64,000 nucleotides of DNA from Stentor roeselii (lineage: Eukaryota > Ciliophora > Heterotrichea > Heterotrichida > Stentoridae), in assembly GCA_006503475.1 (NCBI GenBank), contig RSEH01000190.1, positions 28,666 through 92,665 of the forward strand, in the 5' to 3' direction. Shown piece by piece: positions 32,401 through 64,000 of this stretch. The number at the start of each line of letters is the position of its first letter. Within the stretch, counting starts at the first letter, position 1. Below the pieces are notes generated by a model, which ran no database searches, was not told the origin of the DNA, and was given only the letters and a program-made list of their open reading frames with translations. The translations under genes and the position numbers were made by a program.

Positions 32401-35400
32401 GCACCTTTTTCTTTTTAGAAGAAGAAGAAGATGAACTGCTCTTTTTTCCTCCGATCTTTACTGCAGGTATTTTGACTTCTGCCTTAACAGCCGGGACTGA
32501 TGGCTTAATTTGTACCTTTTTTTTGCTTGAAGAAGAGGAAGATGAGCTACTCTTTTTTCCACCGATCTTTACTGCAGGAACTTTGACATCAGCCTTAACA
32601 GCTGGAACTGATGGCTTAATTTGAACCTTTTTCTTTTTGGATGAAGAGGAAGATGAACTGCTCTTTTTTCCACCTATTTTGACTGCAGGAACTTTAATGT
32701 CTGCTTTAACAGCTGGAACTGATGGCTTAATTTGTATCTTTTTCTTGTCTGAAGACGATGATGATGAGCTACTCTTTTTTCCTCCGATCTTTACTGCAGG
32801 TACTTTGACTTCTGTCTTAACAGCTGGAACTGATGGCTTAATTTGTATCTTTTTCTTACTAGATGAGGAAGATGAACTGCTCTTTTTTCCTCCGATCTTT
32901 ACTGCAGGTACTTTGACATCAGCCTTAACTGCTGGAACCGATGGCTTAATTTGTATCTTTTTCTTTTTAGAGGAAGAGGAAGATGAACTGCTCTTTTTTC
33001 CTCCTATCTTTACCGCAGGAACTTTAACATCAGCCTTAACAGTCGGAACTGATGGCTTAATTTGTACCTTTTTCTTTTTGGAAGAAGATGATGATGAACT
33101 ACTTTTTTTTCCTCCTATCTTTACCGCAGGAACTTTAACATCAGCCTTAACAGCCGGAATTGATGGCTTAATTTGTACCTTTTTCTTGCCTGAAGATGAG
33201 GAAGATGAACTACTCTTTTTTCCTCCTATCTTGACTGCAGGGACTTTGACGTCTGCCTTAACTGCTGGAACCGATGGCTTAATTTGAACTTTTTTCTTTT
33301 TAGAAGAAGAGGAAGAAGAGCTACTCTTTTTTCCACCTATCTTGACAGCAGGAACTTTAACCTCAGCCTTAACAGTCGGAACTGATGGCTTAATTTGCAC
33401 CTTTTTCTTTTTAGAAGAAGAGGAAGATGAGCTACTCTTTTTTCCACCAATCTTGACGGCCGGAACTTTGACGTCTGCCTTAACTGCTGGAACCGATGGC
33501 TTAATTTGAACTTTTTTCTTTTTTGATGAAGAGGAAGATGAGCTACTCTTTTTTCCACCAATTTTGACTGCAGGAACTTTGACGTCAGCCTTGATAGCTG
33601 GGGCCGTTGGCTTAATTTGAACCTTTTTCTTTTTCGAAGAAGAGGAAGATGAACTACTCTTTTTTCCTCCTATCTTGACTGCAGGAACTTTGACGTCCGC
33701 CTTGATAGCTGGAACTGATGGCTTAATTTGCACCTTTTTCTTTTTGGAAGAAGAGGATGAGGAACTGCTCTTTTTCCCTCCTACCTTGATCGAAGGAGCC
33801 TTTACATCTGCCTTAATAGAGGGAACTGATGGCTTAATCTGAACTTTTTTCTTGCTTGATGAAGATGAGCTGCTCTTTTTCACTCCTATCTTTATCTCAG
33901 GAGCCTTTACAGCAGGGACTGAAGGAATTTTTGCTTTTTTCTTATTTGAACTTGATGAGCTGGATGATGATTTTTTACCAGTTATTTTAGCTGAAGGACC
34001 TTTGACGTCTGGAACCTTTACGTCAACTTTGACATTAGGCTTGATCTGAATCTTCTTTTTCTTAGAACTCGAGGAACTTGAAGAACTTCTTTTGCTTCCA
34101 ATCTTAACAGCTGGGCCTTTAATCTCAGCCTTGACTGTGGGAACTGAAGGCTGAAGTTTTACCTTCTTTTTTTTGCTTGAACTACTTGAAGAACTGCTTT
34201 TACCAATTTTAACACCAGGTTTTTTCACCTCTGGGACTTTTATTGAAGGTGTTAATACGTTTAATTTTGCTTTTTTCTTCTTTGAGTCACTGGAAGAGCT
34301 CGATGATCCTTTTTTCATAATGATTTTAGGAGGTTTGACTTCTATGCTAGTTTTAACCTTCTTTTTGTTAGAGCTACTAGACGAGGAGCTCGAACTTTTC
34401 TTCTTCAAATTAATTTCTGGTGCCTTCACGTTAACTGATGGGAGTTTTGCTTTACCTTTTTTCTTATTGAAGCTCGAAGAACTTGAAGAATTTTTCTTTT
34501 TACCCTTGACAATTTTAGGAGTAGCGAGATTGACATCTCCTTTAATTTCTCCACTATATGAAGTATTTTTGAATTTGCTTGAACTACTCGATGTTGCTTT
34601 TTTCCTATGAACAAAGGGTTTAGGCATTTTAGTTGGTGACTTTTTGCCGGCTTTGCTACTACTCGAGCTGGAGCCTTCTTTTAATTTAATGCCAACATGA
34701 ACTTTTGGTTCTTCAGGAAGTTTGAAGTCCAGAGATGCTTTTCCTTTCTTTTTACCACTTGAATCAGAGCTTGACTTCTTTACTTTCACTTTTATTTTAG
34801 GAACTTTGACTTTCTTCTTTTTACTTGAGTCAGATTCTGAATGTTTGTCTTTTTGATTCTTTTTATCGCTTGAGCTTGATGACTTTTTCTTTCCTTTGAC
34901 AATTTTAGGCTTTTCAACGATTTTCTTCGATTTCTTTTTACTAGAGCTGGAGCTGCTTGACTTAGACTTCTTCTTCTTTTTCTTATTATCAGAACTAGAA
35001 CTAGACGATTTCTTCTTCTTCTTATCCTGCTCCGAATGATGCTTTTTATGATGACCATGTTCACTGGGTCGGTGTTGTATACTAAAAACAAACCAGTTTC
35101 CTTTATCTCTCCTTCTAACTGCCACATGTGGGAAAGAAATAAAAATAGAATGAGAACTAGTCCCAATAGTCGGATAATTTTCTTCCAACTCAAAGTTAAG
35201 TCCATCAATCTTATTAAACTTCGGACCCGCACTATCAATTGAAAACTCGAAGACATTTTTATTATATTCTCCAGTTGTGGGGTGTTTTCCTCCAGCAAGT
35301 ATCGCGTAATTATCCAACGATGCGACTTTAGGGTTGATTACTTTGAACTGCATCTTAACTGGTTCCATTCTCAATACAAAGCTATCATCCTTTAAATCAA

Positions 35401-39239: not shown

Positions 39240-42235
39240 CTAACTAAATAAATTCCTATTAAGGTTGGAATAAAAGAGTTTCTTTGCATCATATTTCTCC
39301 AAAGTTCCCTTTTCCCAATCCCAAGTATCATCATCATTCCTATAGTCAGTAAACGCTTTCCTTAACTTCTGAAAAGCAGTTTGACTACTCCAAGGTCCTT
39401 TATCAGTAGTATAAGCCCAGCCCTTCGACCACTCAACATAAACCTTAGCATTATCATCATTAAAAGTCTTATAAAGCCAATCCTCAATCTCCTTATAAAA
39501 CTCATTCGAATATTCAGTTCCAGGAATACACAAAAGGTCTACCCACAAAGCCACATCCCATCCTTTATCCTTATCAAGTTTATTATAAGCCAATGCAGAA
39601 ATAACAGGACGATTGAATTCATCATCAGAATTCTCAAAAATATGTTCATTTTTATCAAGTGCAGTGATTCTAATTTCTAAAGGAGAGTTCATCGGCCACT
39701 TCTTATTTCCAGCGTATTTTTGAACCATCTTGTTAAATTTCGTTCCAAAATAATAACAGGCTTGCTGGATGTAGTTTCGTTTCATATGAATAGCGTATCC
39801 GTTCGCAGTGACTCTTAAAGTCTGGTCCCTGACGTAGATCAAAGTATTTTTCGAAGGACCCCAAAGGTCATTCAATTTATCCTCAACAAGTTTCCCATTT
39901 GAATAGGCCGACATGATTTTGCACAGATAAGGTGTTAGATAAGGAACACTTGTTACTTTACTTAAAAGATCTGTGATGTAATCAGGATAAGTGTCTGAAA
40001 ATGGATAATTGTTCATGTTATCCACTTTCTTGCTGGATTCCGGCTTAACTGCCTCATGAGTCCAGATCTTTACCCAGGGATACTCAGTGAAAGGGAACAT
40101 AATGACTTCAATTCTTCCTGATTTTTCAGCGAGTTCTCCAATTGAATTTGAAGGATTTTCTTCATTTACAGGTTTTGCGAAGAGTTTATCAAAGCTGAGA
40201 TTAACAAAGCTCTGACATCTTAAGTTGTAATTTGGAATCACTTTCATAGTGACCTGAACCACGATGGTCCTTCCAAGATGTGCGAGAAGTGCTTTGGTGT
40301 CCTTGTCTTTCCTATCAAATCTCTTAACAGTGTATTTCTGTGAGTCACTAGTCACAACAGCGTAAAGTTCAACGACATGATTGCTTAAAGACCCATAAGA
40401 AATCTCGAAATTCTCATTTTTTACAGGAAAAGCACTTCCATGTGCATTGATGGCCAACATGCCACCTACAGTCAAATGCGCAGGGGCCGGTATATGCGGA
40501 AAGCTCCACCCTGGGGCATCTCCACTTCCTTCCTGCTGTTCTAAGAAAGTCATCAATTCCCCTAAAGTCGTTCCAGCTGAAACAGTCACTCTTGGTCCAT
40601 ATGGACCTTCTATATTGATACTCATGGGCGAAGGGTATTTGGTTAAGTCAACTAGAAGGACTTTGCCTTTTTCTTTATTTACTATCGTCAAAGGAGACCA
40701 GCCATGAACTACTCCTCGTGGCCGAACGAGGTACCCGTGATTTGAAGCCCAGTCACAAATCAAGCCGAGTTCTTCGAAGTCCTTCGGAGCGGCGGTCCAG
40801 ATTTTTTCAGCCTGAATGGTTCTGTCCCAGTTGGTGTAGAAAACTTTGTTGACACTCACTGGATGAACCCAGTCTGAAGGAAATTCGGGTTTTTTCTCTT
40901 TGATCACTTTGTTAAAGTCAACAGTTATGTATTCAAGATGAAGCAAATTACTGTTTACTGAAAAAACTGCAGTTTTTCCGTTTAATGAGAATTTCACTTG
41001 CTCCTGTGATTTCACGTCACTTAGGACTTTCGGCTTGGCGATTATGTTTAGATTTTCTCCGACGTGATAAGCGGTGGAGGCGAGGTCGATTTCTTGACTT
41101 TTCAACACAAAAATCACATTTTCACTATAGTCTGACATGTAGTCTCCATTGGTAACAACGAAGCTCATGACTGTCAAGGTGTTATTTTTTACTTTGATGT
41201 ATTGAGCTTCAATTGGTTTTGAAGATTTTTTGGTGATTTTTTCTGCTTTGCTAAAGGTTTTAGACTCGACTTTTTCGATCATGTAACTGTTCAGCTCTTT
41301 CTGTCCTTTCGGCTTGATCCAGAACCTGGGGTAAGAAAGAAACACGACGTCGTCTCTGACTATGAATGGATAATAATGCTCTTCTGGCTTGGTTTCAAAG
41401 GAAGCTCCGTATTTTAATATTGAATTCGACTTGGACTTATAAATGAAAACGTCTAAATTCGCTCTTCCATCTTCCAAAACTCCTCCTGCAATGAAAGCAT
41501 TTGATCCTTTAGACACACACATCGGATTCACAAGACTTACCGGCAATGAAAACGGCTCTACTCGTAAATCCCGATCCGCTATTCCAAGTGAAAAGACCTG
41601 CTTCGAAGGTAAATAATCAGAGCCATCAAAAACTTTTCCTCCTACAAAGAAAATTCTATTATTCAGCTTAAAAACTCCTGAAGCGATGATGGAATTTAAG
41701 TTGAAGTTAATTTCTTCGAGGTTTAGTTCATCAAAAGTCTTCTGATCTCCAACTAAGGAGAAGAAGTCAGTTTTTAAAATATTGTTGTAAGAAATTTCGC
41801 TCCATACACGATTTTTGTATCGAAAAGCATCAAAGGTCCTCCTTGAACGGAGGCTGAGTGTTCGTTTGACTCGACTGTTGTTCCAACGAAGTACAAAATT
41901 CCGTCTTGGAAAAAGACTTGACCTTCTTTTGTACTTCGAGGAGGCGATTTGAATTCATGCACCTTGTGTTCAGAGCAGTCTATGTAAAAAGCCCCGCTGG
42001 TGGGGGTGTTTAGCAAGTTTGAACCTCCGATCACGATTATTTTGTCGTTGTCTAAAGTTGATATCGCTGAGTCGTGGTAGATCTTGATCTTTCCATTTAC
42101 TTTCAACTTGTTTACTCTCTCAGATGTTATTTGGTAAAGGTTTTTATTGTGTCTGGAAAAGTAATAAAAGTCGTTCACTTCTTTCTTGACGATTTCTTCC
42201 TCTGGGTTTCCGCTTGAAGAACTAGTCGATCCCAT
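39240..42235 (-). CDS. Kelch-propeller/cholesterol-oxidase-like paralogue, one frameshift
   Basis: About 998 codons, colinear with the gene at 1587-4595, starting MGSTSSSSGN (Gly2 with Ser6, a good myristoylation context) and ending LNRNLFS-TAG. The frame shifts once at plus-strand 41812-41816: after LMLFDTK the homologous sequence continues two bases on as RVWSEISYNN. Restoring homology needs one extra A in an A5 run on the sense strand. Everything after this is intact, including the propeller remainder, the FAD-binding RPRGVVHGWSPL, TVSAGTTLGEL, LTVGGMLAINAHG, and all substrate-domain signatures (EWSKGWAYT). Either an assembly or sequencing error in the homopolymer, a very recent inactivation, or recoding. 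An assembly error is likeliest because the remaining 850 codons show no decay. An internal Met at 41546 is not a credible true start. Confidence 0.8.
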
Positions 42236-46297: not shown

Positions 46298-49200
46298 ATG
46301 AGTGGTTTTGATGATCCTATGAACCAAGTCACAGGTGACGACCTTTTTTTCGAATATAGAAACCAAGAATTAAAGGTAATAAAGGAAGCTTCCAAAAGTG
46401 TTCAACAAAGGTACAATTCTGAATTTGGATGTGATATCGACTGGATGATAGTCCCTTTGATTCAAATTATAGGCAATAGAATGAGTTTTGACCAAAGAAG
46501 CCAAATCTTTTGCGACCAAGTCAGAGTTTTTGATGGGATTTCGCCTATTTGGGATGTCATTTTAATGGGGTCTGCATACGATTATTCTAAGTCATATTTG
46601 GGGTTAGATGATATGTTCCTTCCGATACTTGATTTCATCAAAGGAAGGTTTTTAATTATGGATCTCAAAGACTTCTGGATCGAAGTGAAAATGATGGTGA
46701 GCACCCAGTTTGAGTACTTTGGCCTTATTGTTGTTGAATATTTCCCAGAAATCAAATTGAAAATTTTGATCTGTGCAGGAGACGATAGTACAAAAAGTGA
46801 AGCAATAGATAATGCTCTTGATGAGCTAAAAACATTAAAAAAGCAAATCATTCCAATTAAAAAAGTACTTGGGGATGATTTTTGTAATAAATTGATTGAA
46901 GATGAAGGTTTAATTATTAAACCTCGCCCAATAACTGAAGAAATAGTCCAGAAAATTACAGAGACCATGAGCCAAGAACTAATCAGTGAACAAATAATGG
47001 ATGAGAAAGAAGATTTTCTAGGAAACAAGGAAAAAATTCATGAATATGATGAAATTATGCATAACAGTCAAGAATTTATAGAGAAAAATAAAGAAATAAA
47101 ACAAAGAAACGAAGAAATATTTGAAAAAAATGAACTTCAATTTAAATCATCTGATAATGCAGAGGTTAGACCAGAAGAACAAATAATTGAATCTCAATTT
47201 AAATCATCTGAAATTGCTATTGAGGTTGAACCCAAAGCAAGTAGAATTGATAAATATTTCGAAAGATTTCAACCAAAAACAATAAATTATAACTCTCAAT
47301 CTAATTTTTATAAGGAACAATTAAATCGAAAACAAATTGATCAATCACCATTCAATACTACTGGTTCTTCAAAAAATAATAAAGAAGTTGGTCCTCGTGA
47401 GCCAAGTGAAAGTAGATATGGGCTTAATTATAGAAATTTAATAAATCAAAATAAAGAAGATGAGTCAATACCCAGTAATCAAATACTCAGCGCACTCCCT
47501 TTAAAGCGAAATCCTGAGTTTCCTTTAGAAATTGAGAAAAAAAGTGGTAATGATGAATCTTATTTCGATAAATTCACTCCAGGATTTACATTAAATGATT
47601 TACCAGTTGAAATAAAGAATCTAAGAAACTTCATTGAATGTAATAAGCAGAAATACCTCAATTACTATCGAATGAAAGATCAAAATATCAGTTGGATGGA
47701 ACTTTTGGTTCAATATCACTCAAATGAAGAAAATGGAATTGAAACAATTAACTTTTACGCTGAACAGGAAATTATTTGGAAAGTTTCTGTTTTTGGAGAC
47801 TTCTTAATGGATTTATTATCATTAGACGAATTAATTTTCCTCCACTGCTTATACAAAATAATTTTATGTGCAAAAGGTGACTTAATTGAAGACGCTCAAT
47901 CTTTTTTTAGTTCTAATGAAAAGGAATTAGTAAAGTTATCTGTTTCAATAAAACTTGAAAAATATGGCCTACCATCGATCAGTTCTCTTTTATTTTTTCA
48001 AGAAGGAAACCCAATCCAGCCCATTTTAAAAATCCTTGGATTTGAAATAAATACTGTAAAAAACCTAACCATTAGAAATGCCTCAAATAAAGCTCTTGAT
48101 ATAACTAAAGAACTACAAAGAAATTCTATAAAAGATTTACTGATTTTTGATGAAAATCAAAAAATTATTCCAATTAAAAATCTGATGAAGCCAACAAAGA
48201 ATGCTGTGTCAATTATTTATGTTGTGACTCGATGCACGATTAAAAATTTTGAAAACTCTCATTATTTATATGTTGAAGGAGCTCAAGATATTAAATTCAA
48301 AAAAATTGCGGAAGTAAATGATCACAAACTCGCTCTTTTTAGTGCTGAAGTGAAGATTAATTCATCTTTTGAAATTAGAGAAAATTCGTACATTCCAATT
48401 TATTGGTTGAGAAGAAACCAAAATATGAAAGCTAATAATAATTTCGAATTTATTTTCGATATTGAAAATTCCTATAGATATAAAGAAAGAATATCAACTT
48501 TCGAGTTGTTACTGATTTTTTCGAAGGGATTTGCTTCTGGAAATATTGACACATGCTTTGATGATTTTTGTCTAAAATTAATTGATACTTCATCAAACTA
48601 TCTACTAGATAAATCGAAAGAAAAAGACATATTATCTCTATTAGAATCAGAAGTTTCACAGAAAATTCTTGATTTTGATAAAAGTTTTAGAATTTTAGTG
48701 ATTCTTTCATTTTTGAAATCGTTTTCATTCAACCAAAATAGTTCCTTCTCTTTCAGGAAACTCATTGAAACAATGCAAAGTATGAAATCTGATTTAATGA
48801 TATTGCTGAAATCCAGAAAGACTTACTTGCCTGCAGTCCAAGGAATTGTGAAAGTTTTGATTTACCAGGCTAAACATCATGATGAAGACTTCAACTTCTT
48901 GAGACAAATAAAAGATTTTTTAGTCCTTGAAAAAATGCTTCAATTTTTATTTGAAGAGTATAACACAGTTTATGATGTTATTTCTGATAAAAATATAAAA
49001 ATCCTTATAGACTTGATCTCAAGAATGACACTTCAAAGTCAAGAGAGATTATTCGGTTTAATGATAAACCTTACAGCAAACACTTCAATTGTAATCGAGT
49101 TAATTTTAACTCAAAAAATTTTTTATGCAGAACCTAAAACTAAGAGAGACCTCTTTAACAAATATTTGGGAACCTTGAAACTAACTAATGATGAATTGTT

Positions 49201-52200
49201 AGAGTTCTTGACCAAGGTTCAATCATATACATCAAACATTCCAAATCTGTATGAAGAAAAAAATCTTTTAAATTTTATTTCAAGAATATTATTTTTAAAA
49301 GAAAATATTAATACTACTGAAACAGAAACTGTTATAAACATATTCAAGATAATGGACGAAATTCAATTATTGAATCACTTTAATTCCGATGAATTTATCG
49401 AAAAAATTATAGAAACAGATATGTTTTATAAAGCTTTTTACTTCATAAAATTCTTTGGTTTAAATCTATCGTTGTGGATTTATTCATGGTTAAAACTAAA
49501 CAAATCTTATTTCGGATTTGCAACAAAATCGAAATTTAATTTAGATAAAATAAAAAAAATTGATTCAGAAATAAAGAAATTAGATGAAATTTCCCAAAAT
49601 GAATTTGCAAAAGAATTTTTTACCATGGTCAACGAAGATGAATTTTTAGGGCTGATAGATCATTTTACCAAGGTATCAAGTAAAGTTTTTAAAGATATTT
49701 ATATAGAATCCTTTAAAAAGATTATCGGTTTAAATACTTTCGTCAGAGATTCAGTGATAAAAAAAAATATAATGAACAAAAACACTGATACGATATATGA
49801 AGAAATTTACATATACGCCATAAGTGGGTGCACTGCTTCTGAGAAAGAATTGTGTGAAATATTAATCCTTAACCCTTCTGACTCTCATCCACTTTTCAAG
49901 TTTCTCGAAGACCCCTTAATACATAAAAATCACGAAGCTTATAAAAAAATTACGAACTATTTAAGAAACATGATTGAGGGAATCATGAAAGAAAGTATTT
50001 CATTCAAGGACTTTCAAATATTTGAAAAACATAATAAATTACAAAAGTTATCATTCATGAAATACATCAATTTAATTTTGCAGAACCCTTTAGAATATAA
50101 CGCTTTTCATGATATGTTTCAACTCTTATTAGAAAAATATTTAAATATCATTTCAAATTTGAATATATTGAAAATGATTCATTATAAATACATCAGAAAT
50201 CCAAGAACCGAAAATTCCCTGATAGCCTTTGAAGAGTTTCATTATACTTTGTGGGAAATGTCACTAGGGGACTGCTCGTTAAACAAAAAACTAAAAAACC
50301 TTGAATCTGAATTCTCAATCAATACAGTTTTATTGAAATCACTTCTATTTTCATCATACCTTAAGGATAAATCTATTGAAGATTTCGAATCTTGCATCGA
50401 AGATCAATATTATCCCTTTATTTTAAAGTTGGAAATTATAGAAAATCTTTCATTTACAAATGAATCTCTGCTAAAATTAATGATTTTTATGAGTAAACCT
50501 AATGAAACTATGAAAGAAACAACATTACTATCGAAAATAATAAGAAATCAAAATTTTTCAGAAAGATTAAATTTAATTCTGCAATCTTTTTTAAAATTTT
50601 TCAAAATAAATCAGATAGTTTCCTATGTTCTTGCATTGGCACAACTTCTTGAATTAGATGATGAGATAGTCCAAAAAGATTTATTTTTTCCCCTAAATTT
50701 TTCAGATGACTTTTTATTTCTAATCGAGAGTTTCAATGAAAGAAACTTATCAAGTTTCATTCCAGAAGAAGTCGACTCTTTGATAACTTTTTTCATGTCT
50801 CTAAGCGAATCCCGAAACTCTCTGATTCTAATAAACAGCTTACAAGAAGATGAAATAAGCTTCTGGAAGGAGTGTTTCCAAGAAAACAACGAGAACAAGC
50901 GTCTTACCCTTGAGTTAATCCAAGTATTTTCCAATACTTGGACCTTCTTGCACATAATAAAAGGATCAAAAGGCACACTTTTCACTTACTTTAAGAAAAT
51001 AAAAGAGCTTCTTCAAAACCCGAAGTACCGAAACTTCCTCGAAGAACTCAGCCGATGCGAGGAAGACCTTCATATTTTAGAAGAATACCACAAGTCACTC
51101 AACAACCTCGAGCAAGAAAAACTAAATAAAATCAAAATGATTGTCACCCACTCGACCTTCAATATTTTCATGCATCACTCAACATATGAAATCACTTTAA
51201 AAGTCCTCAAAGAAAACGGCGAGTGCAGACTTCACCCTCTTGACTTTTCTGAATTGAAAGAACTTCGAGACCGTGCATTGTTGAGCAAGTATATCATGGA
51301 CCAGAAGTCTTCAAGCAAAGAAATAGTCCAGGATGTGAAAGTTTTCCAGATTTTCGTGGATTTCGTGGAATGTTTGAACAGGTTTATAGAAACTCTTAAT
51401 CAACTTTCACATTCACTTTACAGGGATAGACTTGAAATTGATGAAAACTTTATGATTGAAAAAGGAGAATTTTTCAGAATGATTGAAGTTTGTGAGTTTT
51501 TTAGAGAATTGAGTGAGGAATACCAGGAAGTTCATCGACTTGCGATGAGAGAAAGTTACTGGATGAATTTTTTGAATGGTGAGAGAACGATTTTGATTGA
51601 CAAGTTCACTTTTAACCAAAGCGAGGAAAACCTGCAAGCAATTCTTCCACTATTGTCCTACATGAACAAAGGCATCCCTGATTTAAATCTGATGCAATTC
51701 GACCGTCCAAACGAAATGGTGAACAGGTTCAAAATAATAGAAAGCCAGCTGCAGCACTTCGAAACCAACTCAGACTCGCTGAAGCTCTACATGCCAGGAC
51801 TGGAAACAAAAGAAAAGCCTTTGGGCCACCTGATCCTCTTGGAAAACAAAGAGTACTACAGGTCAATCCTTTCCATTTACGCGATATACGAAGAATCAGT
51901 TCCCAGCATAGACTTAGTCTTCTTCTGCTACTTGTCAACCATTTGGCAAGAGCTAAAAATGTTCATAAATCGATGCTTTCTCAACCCAGAAAACAAAATT
52001 TACTCTTTGGTCTTCCCTGAAAACCTTTCACTTGAAAACCAGACAAAGCTGGAAACAAAGCTGCTGAAAAATTTCAAAAACAACTGCGGAAAATGTGTCG
52101 CGATTCTGACGACGAACTCGAGAAGCAAACTCGTCAACAACCTCCGGTATCAGAACCTGGTCCCTATTGAAAAGGTGAAAAGTTACTTGCTGCTGAAAGA

Positions 52201-55200
52201 CCAGCAGATTAGAGTAATTATTGAAAATATCGGGGCTAAGATCCAGGTCGTCAGTTCTGAGAGGTCTGGACTGGGAAAGTCGAGGTTTATTCAGAAAAAG
52301 TGCCTTGAAGCAGGAGGAGAAGTGAAAGAAATCGACTTGTCTGGAACTTATGAAAGTTTTGAACTTGGCTCGGCACTTGAAAAAATTTTCAGTGAAAAAG
52401 ACACGAATTATCATATTCAGGTTAGCTACTTATCAACCCCTGAGTACTTCGAACACTTGATTTTTTCGTTGTCTGTCTTCAAGCAGCACTACTCTGAGAA
52501 GTCCTTGTTTCGACTTCAAGACAACTCAAGAATTTTTATTGAAATAGCGAATACCTTTAAAAATAAGTTGTCATCTTCTCTGCCTTTTCTCAAGTTGCTG
52601 CCGAAACAAAAGCACTTAAGTGACTTTTCTATTCAAGACTTGGTGACTTCTGATGATATCGCATATGTCAGTTCTTACCTGAAACTTTACGATTCAGGAC
52701 TCATCAATGACCAGGACTTGAACTATCATAATTCAGACTTTCAGTCTATTACTCATCAAGAGACCTGCCAGTTGCTTACCAAGTACTTCCTTAAAACTCA
52801 AGAAAAAAAATGGAACTTTCACCAACTCGTCACTTTTGTGAAAATTCTGGCAAGACTTTTGCAAAACTTCGAAAAAAGCATGTTTTCAGCTGATATTATG
52901 AGAATTCAAATGAAGGACTTCCATGAAACCACCTGGCAGAACTTGTTTGTAAATATTCGCTCGTCACTGATGCAGAGCATGGTGGAAACCACTAAAGAAT
53001 TCACGAAGTGCTCTGAAAGTGTTTTGAAGGGGCAGACTGCTGCTTTGAGCAAAGCTGAAAATTCTTTGAGTGAAGTGCAGGACCTTACTGAGAACAGTGT
53101 GAAATGGGAAAACTCTAATCATTTCATTGCTTTGTTTTTGGCAGAAGGGGACTTTATGTGCATTTACAGAAAAGCTGAGATGGTTCCGGAAAATATAAAG
53201 AAATTGATTTTGAGTCAGGAGTCCATTCAAAATGCTTTGAGAAGTGGTAGAAATCCTCGGTTTGATAATAACTTGAAGATTCAGGAGTACTCGGCTCTTT
53301 CAAGTAACGACTTGATTGAGAAACTTCTCAGTTTTTATATCAAGTACTCACTGAGGAAGATGAGAGAAGAAACCTTCCAAAAACAGGAAATCGACTTTGA
53401 AACCCTGAAATACTTGAGACTGATGAGCATGGAAGCAACAGGATACGTTTTAACCCCAGACAACTTCTTGAAAATGAACTTGATTTACCTTCGATGCATT
53501 TCAAACCTGCCTTTAATTATCATGGGAGAAACTGGCTGTGGAAAGACTTCACTTCTTCGATTTTTCGTGAGAGAGGTGCTTCAAGAAAGTTTGGAAATCG
53601 TTTATATCCACTCGGGAATAACAGTTGAAATGATACGAAACGTTTTAAATGAGGCCAACCAAAAAGCCTTAATATATCCAGATGATCGACTCTGGGTCTT
53701 TTTCGACGAGTTCAACACAAGCGACTGCATCGGGGTTCTAACAAACATCCTCTGCGAAAAGAAGTTCGAAAACATGTACTTAAGCCCAAACTTGATTTTC
53801 GTGGGGGCCTGTAACCCTTACCGTGTAAAAAAAGCAGTTGCCTTCGAAGAAAATGTGGGGATCAAGAAAAAGCTCGGCGAGGCGCAGCTGGTGCATCTGG
53901 TGAAGCCTCTTCCAGAGAAAGCCACTGAATTTGTCTGGGACTTCGGGTCGCTTCAAAGCAACGAAATCAGGAAGTACGTGGAAAGCATGCTCAAATTAGA
54001 AAAAATCTCTCATCAGGACCTCTTCGTTGACTTGATCTGCAAGGTTCACGAGTACTTCCAGTCCAAAGAAGACGTGAGCAGCGTCAGTCTTCGAGACGCT
54101 CATCGTTTTCTCAAACTATTGAAATGGTTCCAGATATCAATAAAAGAAAGAGAAAAGTACCCGATTTCGAAACCTGACAAGATTTATCTGGAACTAGTTG
54201 ATGAACTAAACGATTTCAGTCATTTTAAAGATATTCGTGGAGGGCTTCTCGCTTTATTCCACTGCTACTACCTCAGGATTTCCTCGAATGTGCAAAGGGA
54301 AGAAATGTTTGGCGTGATCATGAGTTCTCTCCTGAAGCGCCTGCCACATGTGAACAGAGACTACATCGAGAAGTTGCTGCAGTTGGAGCAGCTGGATTTC
54401 ATCAAAAGAATGATTATCCCAGGAGGAGTCGCTTTGAACCAAGCCCTGACCGAGAACATCTTCGCAGTTTTTCCTTGTCTCATGAACAACATCCCGATTT
54501 TCATCTGCGGCAAGCCCGGGTGCAGCAAGTCTCTCGCAATTCAAATCATCCAGTCAAGTGTCCGCGGCGACAAAAGCGCAGACCCGTACTTCAAGACCCT
54601 TCCAGAGCTGAACTTCGTTTCTTTTCAAGGCTCTGACTCGTGCACATCTGAAGGTGTTGAAGAGGTCTTCAAAAAAGCTCTGAAAGTCAAAACCTTCGCG
54701 AAAGGTATCCTTCCTGTAGTCCTTTTCGATGAAATCGGACTTGCGGAAGTCTCAAGGTACAACCCTTTGAAGGTATTGCATCGTCTGCTGGAAGCTGAAA
54801 ACTGCGAAGTCGCCTTTATTGCGATTTCCAACTGGAGACTCGACGCCTCGAAGATGAACCGCGCGCTCTACCTGGCAAGGCCTGACCCGCTTCAGGAGGA
54901 CCTGGTGAGAACTGCGAGAACTTTGTTTGAATCGCTGGGGGTGCAACTGGAGGATCCCCGGGTGAAGGACTTGGCTCACGGGTACTTTGACTTGAAGCGA
55001 AGGCATCTCAACAGCCCTTTTCCTGATTTTTATGGACTGAGGGACTTTTACTCGATGATCAAGTTGGTCGGTAACCGCCTCAAGAAAGGAAAAGGCGACT
55101 TGGACTTCATTGTTCAGAATGCCTTGTTGAGGAATTTTAATGGACTGGAAAAGACAAAATTTCTGGTTGAGGAAAGTTTTTGTTCGTTTTTTCAAAAGTT

Positions 55201-58200
55201 CTTATCAAGGACCTCCGTGGTCGACCTGGTCAAAGAGAATCTGGCTGAAAAGGAGTCGCGGTATTTAATGGTCATCTGCGCGCAGGATGTTTCTATGTAC
55301 TTGCAGGCCACTTTAATCAAAGAGCAACTTCCTAACGCGAGGTTCATCATGGGAAGCACTTTAGAACTGGATGTCTTGCAGGAAGGCACCAGGTTCAGAC
55401 TCTTGTCAGACATCATCGGGTACATGGAGCAAGGAATTCCTATAGTTCTCCATAACATGGACATCATTTACAGTTCTTTGTACGACCTGTTCAATCAAAA
55501 CTTCATCCGTCTCGGAAACTCAAGAAAATACTGCAGAATTGCACTCGGCGCACAGTTTAACCCGAAATGTTTCGTCAATAAACATTTCAAAGCTGTTGTT
55601 TTCCTTGACAGCGATGATGAAACTTTGAAATCTGCTGATGCTCCTTTTTTGAATAGATTTGAAAAACATTTCCTTGTTGTTAGAGACATTCTCAGCGAAC
55701 GCAGTTTGGAAATTTCGGGGAAAATTGAAAACTGGATTCAAAATATCTTGAAAATCCAAAGAAATGAAAACTTGTTAAACCCTGTCGCGGTTTTTCCTTG
55801 TTATTCTCCTGAAACTGTTAATCTTTTAGTGAAGATTTATGAAGATGACCCTGAAGTTGAAATGAAGTGCAAAAGGTTTTGGCTCAAAAATGCAAGTATG
55901 GATGTTTTGGTCCTCAATAAAATGAACCAAGTCGAGGAGGATGAGAAGTTTTCAATTGAAAGGCTGTGGAAGTCCTGCCACGTCAGAAGCTTTCCTGATT
56001 ATTTACAAAAAATCATTGAAAGTTGCAAGCAGGTTAAAATGGTCTCAGCCACTTATGACCCTTCCAGTGTCGATCACTTGAAAATCGATTTCGAAGAATT
56101 TCTTCAAATCGAAAAATGCACAAATTTTAGGTCTGAAGAAGAACTGAAAAAGAACTTCACAAGCTTTTTACTTGGTCTGAGAGTTTTGTACTTGTTTGAG
56201 CTTGATTTTAAGAAAGAGAATCAACATCTTAGGTTTGTTGTCAACCTTTTTGAAAGAGTTTCTTTTGAACTTAAGGAGAGAATTGAAGGAAATCGAAAAA
56301 ATGTTTTGATTTTAATCAGGATGGCCAGAAATGATGAAAATCGAATTCCTCTTTGTTTGTTCAATGGATGGAGGTATAAAATGTTTGAAGATCTGAAATT
56401 TAGTCCTTTGGAAATCGCTGAAGAAGTTCTAGAAAATGATACAGAAACTATTGTGAAAAAAGAAAATGTTTTCTGTTTTGAAGAACATGTTGGAGACATC
56501 AGTCAGCGAGCTGTTGAAACCCTCAAATATTTTTCAAATCTTTTCAATTTTCAAACCATCAGCGAATATAAAGTTTCAATTGAAAAAGCTTTAACAAGTA
56601 ATACAGAAATTATTAAAGCTTTTAAACAAAAAATTTTATCTCAAATAACGAAATTCTTGAGAAGGTCCCGAGAAAAGTGGCATGAATCTCTTTTTGCAAG
56701 TCAAAATATAATTTATCACTCATTATCAATCAAGGATTCAATGAAAATTTACGTTTATGAGAAGTTTGTTAATGAGTTCACTAAACTTCTAGTTTTATGT
56801 GAGAAAAAAGCAGTTCTTTCTCAAATTATTGACTTAAAATCAAATTACTATTGCAATATCTGGATGAGTCTTTTCAATAATTTATCAACTAATGATATGA
56901 AAGTGCAGGTGACTCCTGAGAGCAACCAATTAATCTACAAAGGAATTTTACATACACCTTTTATCTATGAAGATATTTTAAAGTTGATTTCATATCATGA
57001 GGAGGAATTAAGTGGAGCTAATATTGAGGATAGTGACCGGGTTTTATTAATGCGAAAGTATCATATTGAAAACTGCTCCTGGAGAGAACGCAGTAACCTA
57101 TTTTATTCAGATCTTTCACTTCAAGAGAACTTCATCAAAGACTTTATTCATATTATATTAATAGAGAGAGATCATGATATTTCAGATATTCACGAAATTC
57201 AGTATGTTATTTTACTTTACTTATCACAGTTCGAAACTGATCACAGGCTTCTTAAACTTTTGGATTTCAAGGACATGATTCTTAGCTTGAACAAAATATT
57301 AAAAAACTTAAAACAAATAGGCTGCAATGATCCAACAACTTACTTCATGGAAAATTCTGACGTTGAATATCTAGATTTCAATGAAAAGTGGAACAGTTTC
57401 TTTGAAAACTTAGTCAGAAGCACTTTTCCAAGTAAAGTTGACTTTAAGAGCTTAGCAAGTCTCAAATATTATTCGCAGAAAATAGTTGAAATAAAGGAAT
57501 CTTTACAAATGGTTGATTTCTCATCTCAAAGTCTGGAAATTCTTGAATTTTGGATTCAGCTTGCTCAGATCGACAGTGAAGAACTTTTATTAGAAGTATC
57601 AAAAAAAGTGGAGGATAATGGCTTTGAAGTTATTTTGGAAAGGGCTGTGGTTGAAGAGATTCTTTTGAAACTTACTCCAAAAACTATCCAAACATGTAAA
57701 TTCAAATTATTTTACTTTATTACTTTGCTAAAGCAGTCCTCGGATTTCTTTGATATTATTATAAAGGAAATAATTCAGGAAGACCTCTGGAACTACACTG
57801 GGCCTATTTTCGATATGGTTCTTGATTTAACAGGACTTGAAACAGAAATTTTAAATGCTGAGCAGAACACTTTGGATTTATTAGGAATTTTAACTCAAAA
57901 GAATGAATTTTTAGAAAAATTAGTCAATTTATTGAATGCAGATGAGAGTGCCTTTTCAATAATTCTCTGTGATAAAATATCTCAGATTCACAGTGAGGTC
58001 CGATACTCTAACTACAAAGACATTTGCTCTTTTTATATGAATCTGCTAGATGACATACAGAGTAACGGAAAAAATGATAGAAAACTGATGATTATTATTG
58101 CAAGTGGCCGAGTTCGATATTATTTAACGGATTTCTCATACTTTTTAATGGATGAGTTCAATGGACATCAGGCAGATGTTGAAGATATGCTGCAAGACAT

Positions 58201-61150
58201 GAAAACTTTGCTTTCAGAAAAACAAAACTTGCAATATGAACTTTTTATAATGAAGAATTTGAAAACTTTAAGTGGAGAAACTCTTTTCAGTTTGATCAGC
58301 AAGTTAAAGGGAATAAAATACGACTGGAAACATCCCATAGACTCAATCACTGTCAAAAATGAATTCCAAATTTTCCCTTTCATTCAATTGGATAATCCCT
58401 TGTACCAAAAGTTGAGTTTAGGACTTTCTGAACTAAACAAAAATATCAACGCACTGGATAGTTTGATATCAAAAGGAGTTACTTCTCATTTCAAGTTGTT
58501 ACTCGGACTGGCTTTGATAAATCAAGTTTATCTTCATTACAAGTTTTTAAATTTTGAATCCAATCGATATAAAAACTGGTTCAACAAGAAAAAGAAACAA
58601 ATCAGTTCGAATCTCGGAGAAGAATACTCAAGGCTTGTGAATTTATTGATCTTCAACTTTCCTAAAAATTCTCGGCTATTCATGCATCCTAATGTTGATG
58701 ATAAAGAGTTTTATAAAATTCAAGCAGTTGTCACTTTGATTCTTTTGGTCATTTCACATCAACAAACACAGAACCCACTATCAAGTCTAATTTTCGAGAA
58801 TAATTCAAATCTTTGTAAAAATATTTGCACTCGAATAAACTCTTTATATGTTGTTGGAAACGGCGTAGACAAGATGCACGATTACTTGAAATACAACAAA
58901 GAAAACTTTGAATTGCTGAAAAGTACAACTTTTCACAACAGGTATTCGAAGGGAGGATCTTATGTCTGTTCAAACGATTGCAGTTATTTTTATATTGTTA
59001 ATCACTGTGGGGGGACTCGAGAAAAAAGAAACTGCCCTTTTTGCCAAAAAGAAATTGGAGGAAATAACTATTTAATTGTGCAAAGAGAAGGACATAGGAA
59101 TTTAACTGACGATGAAGCTCGGAGCTACTTAAATGAGAAATGCGAGTTGTTTAAAAACTCTGAAACAACTGGTTTGCATGTTTCTGACTCTAATTTAGTC
59201 CTTTCAGTTCCTCGAGAGATGAAATATTTGACTTCTTATTACTTTTTAAACCTTTCAGTTCATTCAATTTTTTACTTTTGTTCAATTGCAGACTTATTTC
59301 CAAAAAAGCAACTTTTAGAGCTTTATAAAATTTCCTCTACTAATGAATTAAATGCTCGAATTGAGAAAATAATTGAAGAAGACTTGAATGAAATCATGAG
59401 CACTGTCAAAGGAGAAACTTGTTATTACTGGACATTAGCGTGTATTTTAAATCTCAATAAAATTATTGAGTCTTTCAACCAAGAACCAATAAATAAAGAG
59501 ATTCGCTTGAAGTTCGAGCAAGACTTTGAAAGCTTGGTAACATCAGCTGACCCTTACCTGTTGACAAACCAGTTTAAATCTGAACTCAACTCCCAGCTCC
59601 AGCCATCTAATTTAATCAAATACATCGATGAACTTGAAATCCCTCCTCAAAATAACTATCCTTTCACCTGCTACTTCCGTGAAACTGGGACTTCATCTTG
59701 GGAAACCCTTTCTCACTCTTTCCTAAGAAGTCCTAGGAAACTAGAACTAAAAACACTTTCATTATTCATCGAAAACTTCAATGAAATCTTGAATTTGCAA
59801 TACTTCTGGCCTATAGTCAAGCTTTCTCGAGCACTAGTTTTGGAGTTTTCATTCAAAATATCTAGACAAGAAGCTCTAAATCTTAAAGTTCAAGATGCTC
59901 TTGCGAGATACCCGAACTTGATAAAAGACTTGGAAGATTTTTTAATTGCTTGGAACTCTTTATCAGTGTCTCTGACTTTTGACTGTAAGTCGTTTGAAAA
60001 GATTCCTCTTGATGAAGACTCTTGTTTGGCTTACTTTTTAGTTGACAACGATATCAATTCTTCAGGAATCCTCATCGCAGCTGCTTTAAGAAAATTGGCG
60101 GAATTGCAGAACTTACTGAAAAAGGTGCTTTTTGAGGAAGGCAACCAATGTGAGAAAATGTTCTTGATTTCTCATTTAACTAAACAAGACATTTTTTCAG
60201 TGGATCAAGAGTTTCTTCAAAGTCTTGCTGAAAATTGTTCAATTCACGGGTTCCAGTTCGGAAGAGGCAAAGAAATTTTCTTTGATTTTGACAGAGTTCA
60301 GCTGAACCTTGAAGGAAAATTAGCTGATGTGAAAATGTTGAACACTGAAAAGATTGAAACAATTCAATATCAATATGAACTTCTCAACACCCGAAGCAAG
60401 TACTCAGGAGTCATTGAACAGATCAGGTCATCCATTCCCCAGGAGCCTCTCACAGAGTCTGATATCTTGAAAATAGAAAAAAATGTCAGAGCTCTGGCGG
60501 CATCCTTGAAAATCAACGACCTCACTGTTTTCAACGAAATTTATTCTTATTTGAATCGACTTCTCAGTATTATCCTCAAGCAAGACCTTCAAATTGTCAA
60601 AACAATCAAGCAGATGCAACTTTTCTCAATGAAGTTTTGCTCTAAATTTAAAGTTGAAAACATTATTTGGGACTTTCCTCTCTCGAAAATCACTTCTTTG
60701 TTTGAGACTATTGAAGTTAAAGTCTATCCTGAAGTCTTGAAGTCTATTCGGAATGACTATAAATTACAATTTAAACCAGATGTACCTGCTCAAGATTTTA
60801 TTGCTGGCTTTAGAATTATTGTTTTGAAGGAGTTCGGGGAAGCAGCTTTTGTTGAAGCTCATAAAGTGATTAGAAGGATGGCTTGCAGGTTACTCACTGC
60901 AAACTTGGATTCTGAATTTTTTATTTGTGATTATTTTGGAAATGAAAATTATTGGAGTCTTGAATTTACAGATAAATGCGAAGAAATTGCCAAAAATTTC
61001 CCAAAGGAATTAAGGTTCATGAATGCAATTCAGATCGAGTCAATATTTGATAGATTGATCAATCCTAAAAGTGATGAAATAGGCAAAAAGATTAGTTCCT
61101 CAACTACTAGTAGAACTTCAAATTTTTTAAAAAAACAGATAAAATTTTAA
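46298..61150 (+). CDS. RNF213: RNF213/mysterin-like giant AAA+ ubiquitin ligase with RZ finger
   Basis: 4950 residues in one intron-free frame, TAA stop; human RNF213 is about 5200. Residues 1-220 and 440-640 hold two related globular domains separated by a Glu/Lys-rich disordered linker. A long helical stalk runs to about 1950. A dynein-like AAA+ core follows. It has a degenerate P-loop at 1987-1995 (SERSGLGKS), Walker A 2410-2418 (GETGCGKTS) with Walker B at 2465-2471 (LWVFFDE), Walker A 2738-2745 (GKPGCSKS) with Walker B 2807-2812 (VVLFDE) and IGLAE, and the family sensor region ending in NRFEKHFL near 3117. The RZ-type zinc finger spans 4224-4258 (C4224, C4228, C4237, C4246, C4249, then IGG). 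Animal RNF213 acts at lipid droplets and on intracellular bacteria, using the RZ finger for ubiquitin transfer. No RING finger is visible, unlike vertebrate RNF213. Upstream lies 4 kb of gene-free DNA. Confidence 0.9.
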   Translation: MSGFDDPMNQVTGDDLFFEYRNQELKVIKEASKSVQQRYNSEFGCDIDWMIVPLIQIIGNRMSFDQRSQIFCDQVRVFDGISPIWDVILMGSAYDYSKSYLGLDDMFLPILDFIKGRFLIMDLKDFWIEVKMMVSTQFEYFGLIVVEYFPEIKLKILICAGDDSTKSEAIDNALDELKTLKKQIIPIKKVLGDDFCNKLIEDEGLIIKPRPITEEIVQKITETMSQELISEQIMDEKEDFLGNKEKIHEYDEIMHNSQEFIEKNKEIKQRNEEIFEKNELQFKSSDNAEVRPEEQIIESQFKSSEIAIEVEPKASRIDKYFERFQPKTINYNSQSNFYKEQLNRKQIDQSPFNTTGSSKNNKEVGPREPSESRYGLNYRNLINQNKEDESIPSNQILSALPLKRNPEFPLEIEKKSGNDESYFDKFTPGFTLNDLPVEIKNLRNFIECNKQKYLNYYRMKDQNISWMELLVQYHSNEENGIETINFYAEQEIIWKVSVFGDFLMDLLSLDELIFLHCLYKIILCAKGDLIEDAQSFFSSNEKELVKLSVSIKLEKYGLPSISSLLFFQEGNPIQPILKILGFEINTVKNLTIRNASNKALDITKELQRNSIKDLLIFDENQKIIPIKNLMKPTKNAVSIIYVVTRCTIKNFENSHYLYVEGAQDIKFKKIAEVNDHKLALFSAEVKINSSFEIRENSYIPIYWLRRNQNMKANNNFEFIFDIENSYRYKERISTFELLLIFSKGFASGNIDTCFDDFCLKLIDTSSNYLLDKSKEKDILSLLESEVSQKILDFDKSFRILVILSFLKSFSFNQNSSFSFRKLIETMQSMKSDLMILLKSRKTYLPAVQGIVKVLIYQAKHHDEDFNFLRQIKDFLVLEKMLQFLFEEYNTVYDVISDKNIKILIDLISRMTLQSQERLFGLMINLTANTSIVIELILTQKIFYAEPKTKRDLFNKYLGTLKLTNDELLEFLTKVQSYTSNIPNLYEEKNLLNFISRILFLKENINTTETETVINIFKIMDEIQLLNHFNSDEFIEKIIETDMFYKAFYFIKFFGLNLSLWIYSWLKLNKSYFGFATKSKFNLDKIKKIDSEIKKLDEISQNEFAKEFFTMVNEDEFLGLIDHFTKVSSKVFKDIYIESFKKIIGLNTFVRDSVIKKNIMNKNTDTIYEEIYIYAISGCTASEKELCEILILNPSDSHPLFKFLEDPLIHKNHEAYKKITNYLRNMIEGIMKESISFKDFQIFEKHNKLQKLSFMKYINLILQNPLEYNAFHDMFQLLLEKYLNIISNLNILKMIHYKYIRNPRTENSLIAFEEFHYTLWEMSLGDCSLNKKLKNLESEFSINTVLLKSLLFSSYLKDKSIEDFESCIEDQYYPFILKLEIIENLSFTNESLLKLMIFMSKPNETMKETTLLSKIIRNQNFSERLNLILQSFLKFFKINQIVSYVLALAQLLELDDEIVQKDLFFPLNFSDDFLFLIESFNERNLSSFIPEEVDSLITFFMSLSESRNSLILINSLQEDEISFWKECFQENNENKRLTLELIQVFSNTWTFLHIIKGSKGTLFTYFKKIKELLQNPKYRNFLEELSRCEEDLHILEEYHKSLNNLEQEKLNKIKMIVTHSTFNIFMHHSTYEITLKVLKENGECRLHPLDFSELKELRDRALLSKYIMDQKSSSKEIVQDVKVFQIFVDFVECLNRFIETLNQLSHSLYRDRLEIDENFMIEKGEFFRMIEVCEFFRELSEEYQEVHRLAMRESYWMNFLNGERTILIDKFTFNQSEENLQAILPLLSYMNKGIPDLNLMQFDRPNEMVNRFKIIESQLQHFETNSDSLKLYMPGLETKEKPLGHLILLENKEYYRSILSIYAIYEESVPSIDLVFFCYLSTIWQELKMFINRCFLNPENKIYSLVFPENLSLENQTKLETKLLKNFKNNCGKCVAILTTNSRSKLVNNLRYQNLVPIEKVKSYLLLKDQQIRVIIENIGAKIQVVSSERSGLGKSRFIQKKCLEAGGEVKEIDLSGTYESFELGSALEKIFSEKDTNYHIQVSYLSTPEYFEHLIFSLSVFKQHYSEKSLFRLQDNSRIFIEIANTFKNKLSSSLPFLKLLPKQKHLSDFSIQDLVTSDDIAYVSSYLKLYDSGLINDQDLNYHNSDFQSITHQETCQLLTKYFLKTQEKKWNFHQLVTFVKILARLLQNFEKSMFSADIMRIQMKDFHETTWQNLFVNIRSSLMQSMVETTKEFTKCSESVLKGQTAALSKAENSLSEVQDLTENSVKWENSNHFIALFLAEGDFMCIYRKAEMVPENIKKLILSQESIQNALRSGRNPRFDNNLKIQEYSALSSNDLIEKLLSFYIKYSLRKMREETFQKQEIDFETLKYLRLMSMEATGYVLTPDNFLKMNLIYLRCISNLPLIIMGETGCGKTSLLRFFVREVLQESLEIVYIHSGITVEMIRNVLNEANQKALIYPDDRLWVFFDEFNTSDCIGVLTNILCEKKFENMYLSPNLIFVGACNPYRVKKAVAFEENVGIKKKLGEAQLVHLVKPLPEKATEFVWDFGSLQSNEIRKYVESMLKLEKISHQDLFVDLICKVHEYFQSKEDVSSVSLRDAHRFLKLLKWFQISIKEREKYPISKPDKIYLELVDELNDFSHFKDIRGGLLALFHCYYLRISSNVQREEMFGVIMSSLLKRLPHVNRDYIEKLLQLEQLDFIKRMIIPGGVALNQALTENIFAVFPCLMNNIPIFICGKPGCSKSLAIQIIQSSVRGDKSADPYFKTLPELNFVSFQGSDSCTSEGVEEVFKKALKVKTFAKGILPVVLFDEIGLAEVSRYNPLKVLHRLLEAENCEVAFIAISNWRLDASKMNRALYLARPDPLQEDLVRTARTLFESLGVQLEDPRVKDLAHGYFDLKRRHLNSPFPDFYGLRDFYSMIKLVGNRLKKGKGDLDFIVQNALLRNFNGLEKTKFLVEESFCSFFQKFLSRTSVVDLVKENLAEKESRYLMVICAQDVSMYLQATLIKEQLPNARFIMGSTLELDVLQEGTRFRLLSDIIGYMEQGIPIVLHNMDIIYSSLYDLFNQNFIRLGNSRKYCRIALGAQFNPKCFVNKHFKAVVFLDSDDETLKSADAPFLNRFEKHFLVVRDILSERSLEISGKIENWIQNILKIQRNENLLNPVAVFPCYSPETVNLLVKIYEDDPEVEMKCKRFWLKNASMDVLVLNKMNQVEEDEKFSIERLWKSCHVRSFPDYLQKIIESCKQVKMVSATYDPSSVDHLKIDFEEFLQIEKCTNFRSEEELKKNFTSFLLGLRVLYLFELDFKKENQHLRFVVNLFERVSFELKERIEGNRKNVLILIRMARNDENRIPLCLFNGWRYKMFEDLKFSPLEIAEEVLENDTETIVKKENVFCFEEHVGDISQRAVETLKYFSNLFNFQTISEYKVSIEKALTSNTEIIKAFKQKILSQITKFLRRSREKWHESLFASQNIIYHSLSIKDSMKIYVYEKFVNEFTKLLVLCEKKAVLSQIIDLKSNYYCNIWMSLFNNLSTNDMKVQVTPESNQLIYKGILHTPFIYEDILKLISYHEEELSGANIEDSDRVLLMRKYHIENCSWRERSNLFYSDLSLQENFIKDFIHIILIERDHDISDIHEIQYVILLYLSQFETDHRLLKLLDFKDMILSLNKILKNLKQIGCNDPTTYFMENSDVEYLDFNEKWNSFFENLVRSTFPSKVDFKSLASLKYYSQKIVEIKESLQMVDFSSQSLEILEFWIQLAQIDSEELLLEVSKKVEDNGFEVILERAVVEEILLKLTPKTIQTCKFKLFYFITLLKQSSDFFDIIIKEIIQEDLWNYTGPIFDMVLDLTGLETEILNAEQNTLDLLGILTQKNEFLEKLVNLLNADESAFSIILCDKISQIHSEVRYSNYKDICSFYMNLLDDIQSNGKNDRKLMIIIASGRVRYYLTDFSYFLMDEFNGHQADVEDMLQDMKTLLSEKQNLQYELFIMKNLKTLSGETLFSLISKLKGIKYDWKHPIDSITVKNEFQIFPFIQLDNPLYQKLSLGLSELNKNINALDSLISKGVTSHFKLLLGLALINQVYLHYKFLNFESNRYKNWFNKKKKQISSNLGEEYSRLVNLLIFNFPKNSRLFMHPNVDDKEFYKIQAVVTLILLVISHQQTQNPLSSLIFENNSNLCKNICTRINSLYVVGNGVDKMHDYLKYNKENFELLKSTTFHNRYSKGGSYVCSNDCSYFYIVNHCGGTREKRNCPFCQKEIGGNNYLIVQREGHRNLTDDEARSYLNEKCELFKNSETTGLHVSDSNLVLSVPREMKYLTSYYFLNLSVHSIFYFCSIADLFPKKQLLELYKISSTNELNARIEKIIEEDLNEIMSTVKGETCYYWTLACILNLNKIIESFNQEPINKEIRLKFEQDFESLVTSADPYLLTNQFKSELNSQLQPSNLIKYIDELEIPPQNNYPFTCYFRETGTSSWETLSHSFLRSPRKLELKTLSLFIENFNEILNLQYFWPIVKLSRALVLEFSFKISRQEALNLKVQDALARYPNLIKDLEDFLIAWNSLSVSLTFDCKSFEKIPLDEDSCLAYFLVDNDINSSGILIAAALRKLAELQNLLKKVLFEEGNQCEKMFLISHLTKQDIFSVDQEFLQSLAENCSIHGFQFGRGKEIFFDFDRVQLNLEGKLADVKMLNTEKIETIQYQYELLNTRSKYSGVIEQIRSSIPQEPLTESDILKIEKNVRALAASLKINDLTVFNEIYSYLNRLLSIILKQDLQIVKTIKQMQLFSMKFCSKFKVENIIWDFPLSKITSLFETIEVKVYPEVLKSIRNDYKLQFKPDVPAQDFIAGFRIIVLKEFGEAAFVEAHKVIRRMACRLLTANLDSEFFICDYFGNENYWSLEFTDKCEEIAKNFPKELRFMNAIQIESIFDRLINPKSDEIGKKISSSTTSRTSNFLKKQIKF

Positions 61151-63926: not shown

Positions 63927-64000
63927 TTAGGGTGTTAGGGTGTTAGGGTGTTAGGGTGTTAGGGTGTTAGGGTGTTAGGGTGTTAGGGTGTTAGGGTGTT
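63927..64000 (+). repeat. Telomere, (TGTTAGGG)n
   Basis: Nine and a quarter perfect 8-bp units of TTAGGGTG (a permutation of TGTTAGGG, complement CCCTAACA) run to the last base, with the G-rich strand 5' to 3' towards the end. This is the orientation of a right chromosome end and the unit reported for heterotrich macronuclear chromosomes (Stentor, Blepharisma). The junction with unique AT-rich DNA is at about 63926. Confidence 0.95.

Follow-up and report, generated by a model that had tools for sequence, protein, structure and literature searches.

A single-exon gene in the window, the whole 64,000-nucleotide stretch of DNA analysed here, encodes an intact giant protein of 4,950 residues (46298..61150, forward strand, as are all features of the gene given below). 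Judged by the homology of its AAA core and RZ zinc finger, the gene is a member of the RNF213 family and represents a RING-less branch of that family. By sequence it is not a canonical RNF213, since it carries neither the RING nor the general-base histidine of the catalytic site. The gene is one of a large set of paralogues, and the interpretation we favor is that these are RING-less, ATP-gated E3 ligases of the RZ type together with catalytically reduced sisters, probably serving as cell-autonomous surveillance proteins, a proposal to which we give an even chance of being correct.

The Gene and Its Coding Frame

The gene occupies one open frame from ATG to TAA without introns, at exactly the positions where the original prediction had placed a single-exon giant. 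At the base composition of the window, the chance of an open run of this length is approximately 10^-162. When read with translation table 6, the frame extends to 61312 through seven reassigned codons. Because the table 11 frame is open up to the TAA, these seven are the gene's own stop codon and six codons behind it, and neither TAA nor TAG is therefore used as sense inside the 4,950-residue gene. The 11 giant genes of this genome that were read completely all terminate in TAA or TAG, and the CDC45 gene within the window terminates in TGA. The standard stops are thus in use, with TAA, TAG, and TGA all closing long genes.

Stentor is a heterotrich genus with the standard code, and a heterotrich of this kind fits the ciliate origin that had been proposed for the DNA. 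The contig end is in line with this origin. About 2.8 kb past the gene, the contig terminates in telomere repeats, (TGTTAGGG)n (63927..64000, no strand assigned), which also occur at other contig ends among the matches listed and are comparable to the telomeres of Blepharisma, described in PMC9942806 as permutations of CCCTAACA. According to the same source, UGA encodes tryptophan in Blepharisma, whereas TGA is a stop in the genome studied here; because TAA, TAG, and TGA all terminate long genes, the DNA is not from Blepharisma.

Several other large reading frames were observed in the window. Two frames, at 1587-4595 (forward strand) and 39240-41546 (reverse strand), encode proteins in which a FAD-binding domain accompanies a cholesterol-oxidase substrate-binding domain (E ~1e-90), one of the two proteins being fused to Kelch repeats. 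The reverse strand also carries an ORF of 3,781 residues (6641-17986) that contains a REJ domain and, under its cut-off, a match to laminin-G, as well as a 3,204-residue ORF with marked AT skew and weak Kelch matches (26435-36049), opposite which several long open frames are found.

The AAA Core Points to the RNF213 Family

Pfam recognizes AAA in the window protein above the cut-off of the family, the best stretch covering residues 2735-2846 (E 1.2e-9). A phmmer search against the PDB at E ≤ 0.01 retrieved nine distinct sequences, all nine of which are RNF213, with the best match, to mouse RNF213, extending over residues 2383-3157 (53444..55768; E 4e-97). The RNF213-type AAA core that had been recognized at the outset is borne out by this result, and neither midasin nor dynein, the families named as possible alternative groupings of the core, is among the matches. 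Within the core, the Walker A and B motifs of AAA3 and AAA4 are all four matched by pattern: GETGCGKT (AAA3 Walker A, residues 2410-2417; 53525..53548), WVFFDEFNT (AAA3 Walker B, residues 2466-2474; 53693..53719), GKPGCSKS (AAA4 Walker A, residues 2738-2745; 54509..54532), and VVLFDEIGL (AAA4 Walker B, residues 2807-2815; 54716..54742). The AAA numbers are presumptive and follow position relative to RNF213. In addition, a weak alignment (10.7 bits) places a putative AAA2-type P-loop at about residues 1984-1998 (approximately 52247..52291), collinear with its counterpart in RNF213.

A profile built from the C-terminal halves of 11 copies aligned with RNF213 over the core (333 bits) and then, with the order of the two stretches conserved, over a segment that begins inside the RZ finger and continues into the C-terminal region (45 bits). 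The region behind the RZ finger (59084..61147) is partly alignable to the C-terminal region of RNF213. At the other end of the protein, the N-terminal arm (residues 1-1840; 46298..51817) is without a Pfam domain and includes the parts that diverge fastest among the paralogues. The overall layout resembles that of vertebrate RNF213 (mysterin; mouse structures 6tax and 7oik), a protein of about 5,000 residues that shares the AAA core with AAA3 and AAA4 motifs, the RZ finger with its nucleophilic cysteine, and part of the C-terminal region, in the same order.

A search for a possible source among viruses and prokaryotes confirmed no relative: with patterns based on the aligned cores, 52 stretches of viral contigs and 157 stretches of prokaryote genomes were hit, none of them a confirmed relative. 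The RZ family was not found in the 14 control genomes.

No RING Is Detected between the Core and the RZ Finger

In vertebrate RNF213, the RING resides in the E3-module interval, which in the window protein corresponds to residues 3158-4216 (55769..58945). The original prediction had seen no RING here and had proposed a profile search for RING-type zinc fingers. Such a search, in which the window protein and the C-terminal halves of 11 copies (the window protein and 10 paralogues) were compared with Pfam, retrieved no family of the RING type at E ≤ 1; single copies gave chance-level matches to zf-C3HC (E 0.084) and Cys_rich_CPXG (E 0.18). Direct reading of the copies gave the same picture. Between residue 3158 (window numbering) and the first RZ cysteine, an interval of 1010 to 1152 residues depending on the copy, a CxxC pair is present in none of the 11. 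The window copy contains 16 cysteines and 22 histidines in the 1066 residues of this interval, and in copy C57 a single CxxH and a single HxxC lie far apart. Four Cys/His columns are common to 9 or 10 of the 11 copies (C3168, C3191, H3228, and H3310 of the window protein); they are single, unpaired residues that follow closely on the core and span 143 positions, and judged by this spacing they are not a RING array. As a positive control, the genome yielded at least 150 PF13639 RING matches (150 of 455 candidates scored), and among the 150 matches listed none falls inside an RNF213-like gene.

Because all 11 read copies are devoid of a RING, it was absent already before these copies diverged. 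A 10-copy profile from residue 3340 to the end of the RZ finger found no RNF213 chain at E ≤ 10 (one weak TFIID chain, E 0.91), and when the 11-copy profile was compared with RNF213, the interval contained a single collinear patch, of 1.8 bits, so the RING gap is not placed to the residue. By sequence, the stretch between core and RZ finger is not alignable to RNF213, and the RZ finger alone is too short to carry the profile.

With regard to origin, the absence of a RING in all 11 copies of one genome makes two histories equally possible when taken by itself: the RING may never have been gained, the RZ finger having come first, or it may have been lost. In the latter case, an ancestor with both RING and RZ finger would have given rise to a ciliate lineage that dropped the RING before the gene was duplicated. 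One early event would suffice to account for 11 RING-less copies, the RING is described as dispensable in mammals (PMC12075652, PMC11549300), and the ciliate profile is shorter by about 190 positions between the two aligned stretches (869 positions versus 1059 RNF213 residues). We consider such a loss to have slightly less than an even chance; it would concern the origin of the branch only and would leave the proposed mechanism unchanged.

The RZ Finger and Its Active Site

An RZ finger had been recognized in the original reading of the sequence and was recovered by Pfam as PF20173 at residues 4218-4262 (58949..59083; E 1.7e-6), scoring 28 bits, one bit above the cut-off of 27. The genome search gave 36.1 bits for the same finger and 39.8-49 bits for those of six other giants. 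A 7-copy profile from before the RZ finger onward matched RNF213 with a best E of 1.9e-14, over a stretch that includes the end of the finger. The last four active-site positions were assigned by alignment (mouse VGEC to NH), and the first two ligands, which lie outside the aligned stretch, were assigned by motif.

In mouse RNF213, zinc is reported to be coordinated by Cys4451, His4455, Cys4471, and Cys4474, with Cys4462 acting as the nucleophile and His4483 as the base; activity is reduced in the H4483A mutant, and zinc-ligand mutants are inactive (PMC12075652). The window copy has a cysteine at the nucleophile position (C4237, equivalent to mouse Cys4462; 59006..59008) and ligand-type residues at all four putative zinc-ligand positions, namely C4224 and C4228 (58967..58981), the second of which takes the place of mouse His4455, and C4246 and C4249 (59033..59044), equivalent to mouse Cys4471 and Cys4474. 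Cysteine instead of histidine at the second ligand position is a feature of all 10 read copies with an RZ finger. The position of the general base, mouse His4483, is occupied by Tyr4258 (codon TAT, 59069..59071), which suggests that the window copy may be a weakened enzyme. Since the sister copy C154 retains the histidine, the change to tyrosine is assigned to the window copy's own branch. A fold predicted for this part of the window protein, the RZ region, from the single sequence reached a mean pLDDT of 33.7 and is meaningless.

The other copies differ widely in the state of this site. A complete RZ active site, with four ligand-type residues, the cysteine, and the histidine, is present in 5 of the 11 (C154, C36, C9, C138a, and C187). 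The general-base histidine is kept in six of the 10 read copies other than that of the window, including C511, which has both nucleophile and base but an aspartate at the fourth ligand position. The nucleophile is replaced by tyrosine in C96 and by phenylalanine in C57 and C65a, and the whole RZ block is missing from C310. A further histidine, His4266 in the window protein, is invariant in the seven read copies that bear the nucleophilic cysteine (7/7). On an unrooted tree of the core (14 rows), C96 and C57 fall into one supported group and C310 and C65a, together with C65b, into another; because both groups also hold cysteine-bearing copies, parsimony suggests at least two losses of the nucleophile.

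A Family of Giants with Mixed Catalytic States

A check for paralogues, suggested in the original prediction, revealed an extensive family. When the 44.4-Mb genome was searched with the core as the query, at least 21 core-bearing loci were found, comprising 17 giant ORFs, two shorter ones, and two decayed ones; counts for families of this size are lower bounds. A near-complete core is present at 16 loci, whose open frames range from 3739 to 5139 residues, and C245, in which the core is split into three pieces inside one frame of 4543 residues, was counted as the 17th giant. The shorter frames, C231 and C74, contain 2382 and 2409 residues, respectively. An RZ finger scored above the Pfam cut-off at nine loci, namely seven of the 17 giants, C74, and C460. 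The last of these (G000:C460, L006:940-2271), an ORF of 443 residues, is accompanied by no AAA core within the 3.1 kb inspected, and may encode an RZ-only protein or be a single exon from a larger gene. The two decayed loci, G000:C304 and G000:C501, are fragmented giant copies with stops or short frames, located less than 10 kb from the start of their contigs.

The whole gene was read for 11 giants (the window copy, C154, C36, C9, C138a, C187, C511, C96, C57, C65a, and C310), the remaining six of the 17 being C16, C138b, C65b, C185, C54, and C245. All 11 read copies match the Walker A patterns of AAA3 and AAA4; Walker B is matched in all 11 for AAA4 and in 10 of the 11 for AAA3, the exception being C511. 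Elsewhere in the family, C16 matches AAA3 Walker A and both Walker B patterns but not AAA4 Walker A, C138b matches both Walker A patterns and no Walker B, and C65b matches AAA4 Walker A alone, with no Walker B. The ATPase motifs thus appear, by pattern, to be well kept across the family, with exceptions. The core is also the part that diverges most slowly: the window copy and C154 are 73% identical over residues 2701-3157 and 27% identical over residues 401-800, a segment that is among the fastest to diverge. Searches with Pfam revealed neither a CBM20 nor another known recognition domain in the window protein's N-terminal arm or in the first 1800 residues of the 10 other copies, a region in which divergence could hide one.

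The distance to a contig end is between 1.3 and 28.8 kb for the 11 read genes, a proximity that differs from random placement (one-sided KS p 7e-5; Fisher's method 0.002). Among the contig ends inspected, those of C106, C9, C36, C57, and C511 carry telomere repeats and that of C96 is without them; the contig ends may in part be assembly breaks.

Discussion

The kept ATPase motifs, the mixed states of the RZ finger, and the diverging N-terminal arm fit, at the level of sequence, a family with E3 and non-E3 members. In the mechanism proposed here, the AAA3/AAA4 pair would, by homology, bind and hydrolyze ATP, probably acting as a switch. The RZ finger would hold zinc and present Cys4237, which would accept ubiquitin as a thioester from an E2, a family with 59 matches in the genome, 58 of them above cut-off, and pass it on to a substrate with no involvement of a RING. 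In the window copy, with Tyr4258 at the base position, this transfer would probably be slower, or a nearby histidine such as His4266 may act as the base. The divergent N-terminal arms would determine target choice, the targets most likely being microbes or the membranes surrounding them.

The premise of the original prediction, that the RZ finger and not the RING can drive ubiquitin transfer in vertebrate RNF213, agrees with three reports in which the RING is described as dispensable and the RZ finger as catalytic (PMC7311170, PMC12075652, PMC11549300). RNF213 deprived of its RING still ubiquitylates bacteria and RZ mutants fail to do so, as reported in PMC11549300. The same paper describes RNF213 coats on Toxoplasma vacuoles that form in RZ mutants and require ATPase activity; by comparison, the ciliate copies that lack the nucleophile or the entire RZ finger could function as ATP-driven scaffolds or decoys. 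It also reports that positive selection in simian RNF213 acts chiefly on the N-terminal part, around the CBM20 domain.

A role in housekeeping instead of defence would have the family act on lipid droplets, digestive vacuoles, or other membranes, with its copy number reflecting ordinary duplication. Large gene families are frequent in ciliates, which is in keeping with this idea. RNF213 itself has been reported to influence fatty acid metabolism and lipid droplets as well (PMC11549300). The diverged N-terminal arms, the mixed catalytic states, and the location near contig ends nevertheless resemble a response to changing demands, although they could also have a neutral origin, and we regard housekeeping as unlikely, if well worth considering. 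Less probable still, in our estimation, is a broader scenario in which RNF213-type proteins were RZ-only at first and acquired the RING on the animal side, with the ciliate form radiating into subtelomeric intracellular sensors whose shared ATP-switch cores, diverging target arms, and active, weakened, or dead RZ heads would work jointly on microbes or vacuoles.

The family might alternatively consist mostly of decaying duplicates, the window copy being an inactive relic with a damaged RZ finger. The tyrosine at its base position, the two decayed loci (C304 and C501), and the disappearance of the nucleophile from 4 of the 11 read copies would be expected under such decay. However, the frames are open over 4300-5100 codons in all 11 read copies despite the high divergence of the six pairs compared, in each of which third codon positions differ most and synonymous differences are near saturation, and the window copy retains its AAA motifs, the nucleophile, and the zinc-ligand positions; we therefore consider decay to be quite improbable. 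Membership in a different giant AAA family, such as midasin or dynein, or in the ZNFX1-type helicases was rejected as exceedingly improbable and is excluded within the scope of the PDB and Pfam searches, for although six-unit AAA cores are similar in outline and ZNFX1 shares the RZ finger, the PDB matches at E ≤ 0.01 are RNF213 chains only, no helicase family passes the Pfam cut-off, and the RNA_helicase P-loop match lies below it.

The predicted RZ-type ligases can be compared with several known systems. Unlike vertebrate RNF213, the ciliate copies have no RING and carry cysteine instead of histidine at the second zinc-ligand position, and the window copy has tyrosine for the base histidine and no CBM20 that Pfam detects. 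Gene number differs as well, with many copies here as opposed to one in humans, two in zebrafish, and six in salmon, according to PMC12234341. ZNFX1 has the RZ finger in common with the window protein but is an RNA helicase (PMC12075652), whereas the window protein is a giant with an RNF213-type AAA core. The combination of a cysteine nucleophile and a histidine base is described as a strategy common to RNF213 and MYCBP2, a RING-Cys-Relay E3 (PMC12075652); the ciliate giants differ from MYCBP2 in having no RING, and the likeness drawn here is one of catalytic strategy. An expansion of the RNF213 family has likewise been reported for symbiotic bivalves, animals with bacterial symbionts (PMC9993606). 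Among the matches listed from the open PMC literature, none dealt with RNF213 in ciliates or in other protists.

The RING-less giants represent a natural counterpart of the RING-deletion experiment and as such a test of the claim that RNF213 acts via its RZ finger and not its RING. Within the same family, AAA motifs are retained in copies whose catalytic head is damaged or absent. If these features were confirmed in other protists, an immune-type ubiquitin system would predate animals, and sister genes would offer a single-celled model in which the ATPase and ligase roles of the family could be separated.
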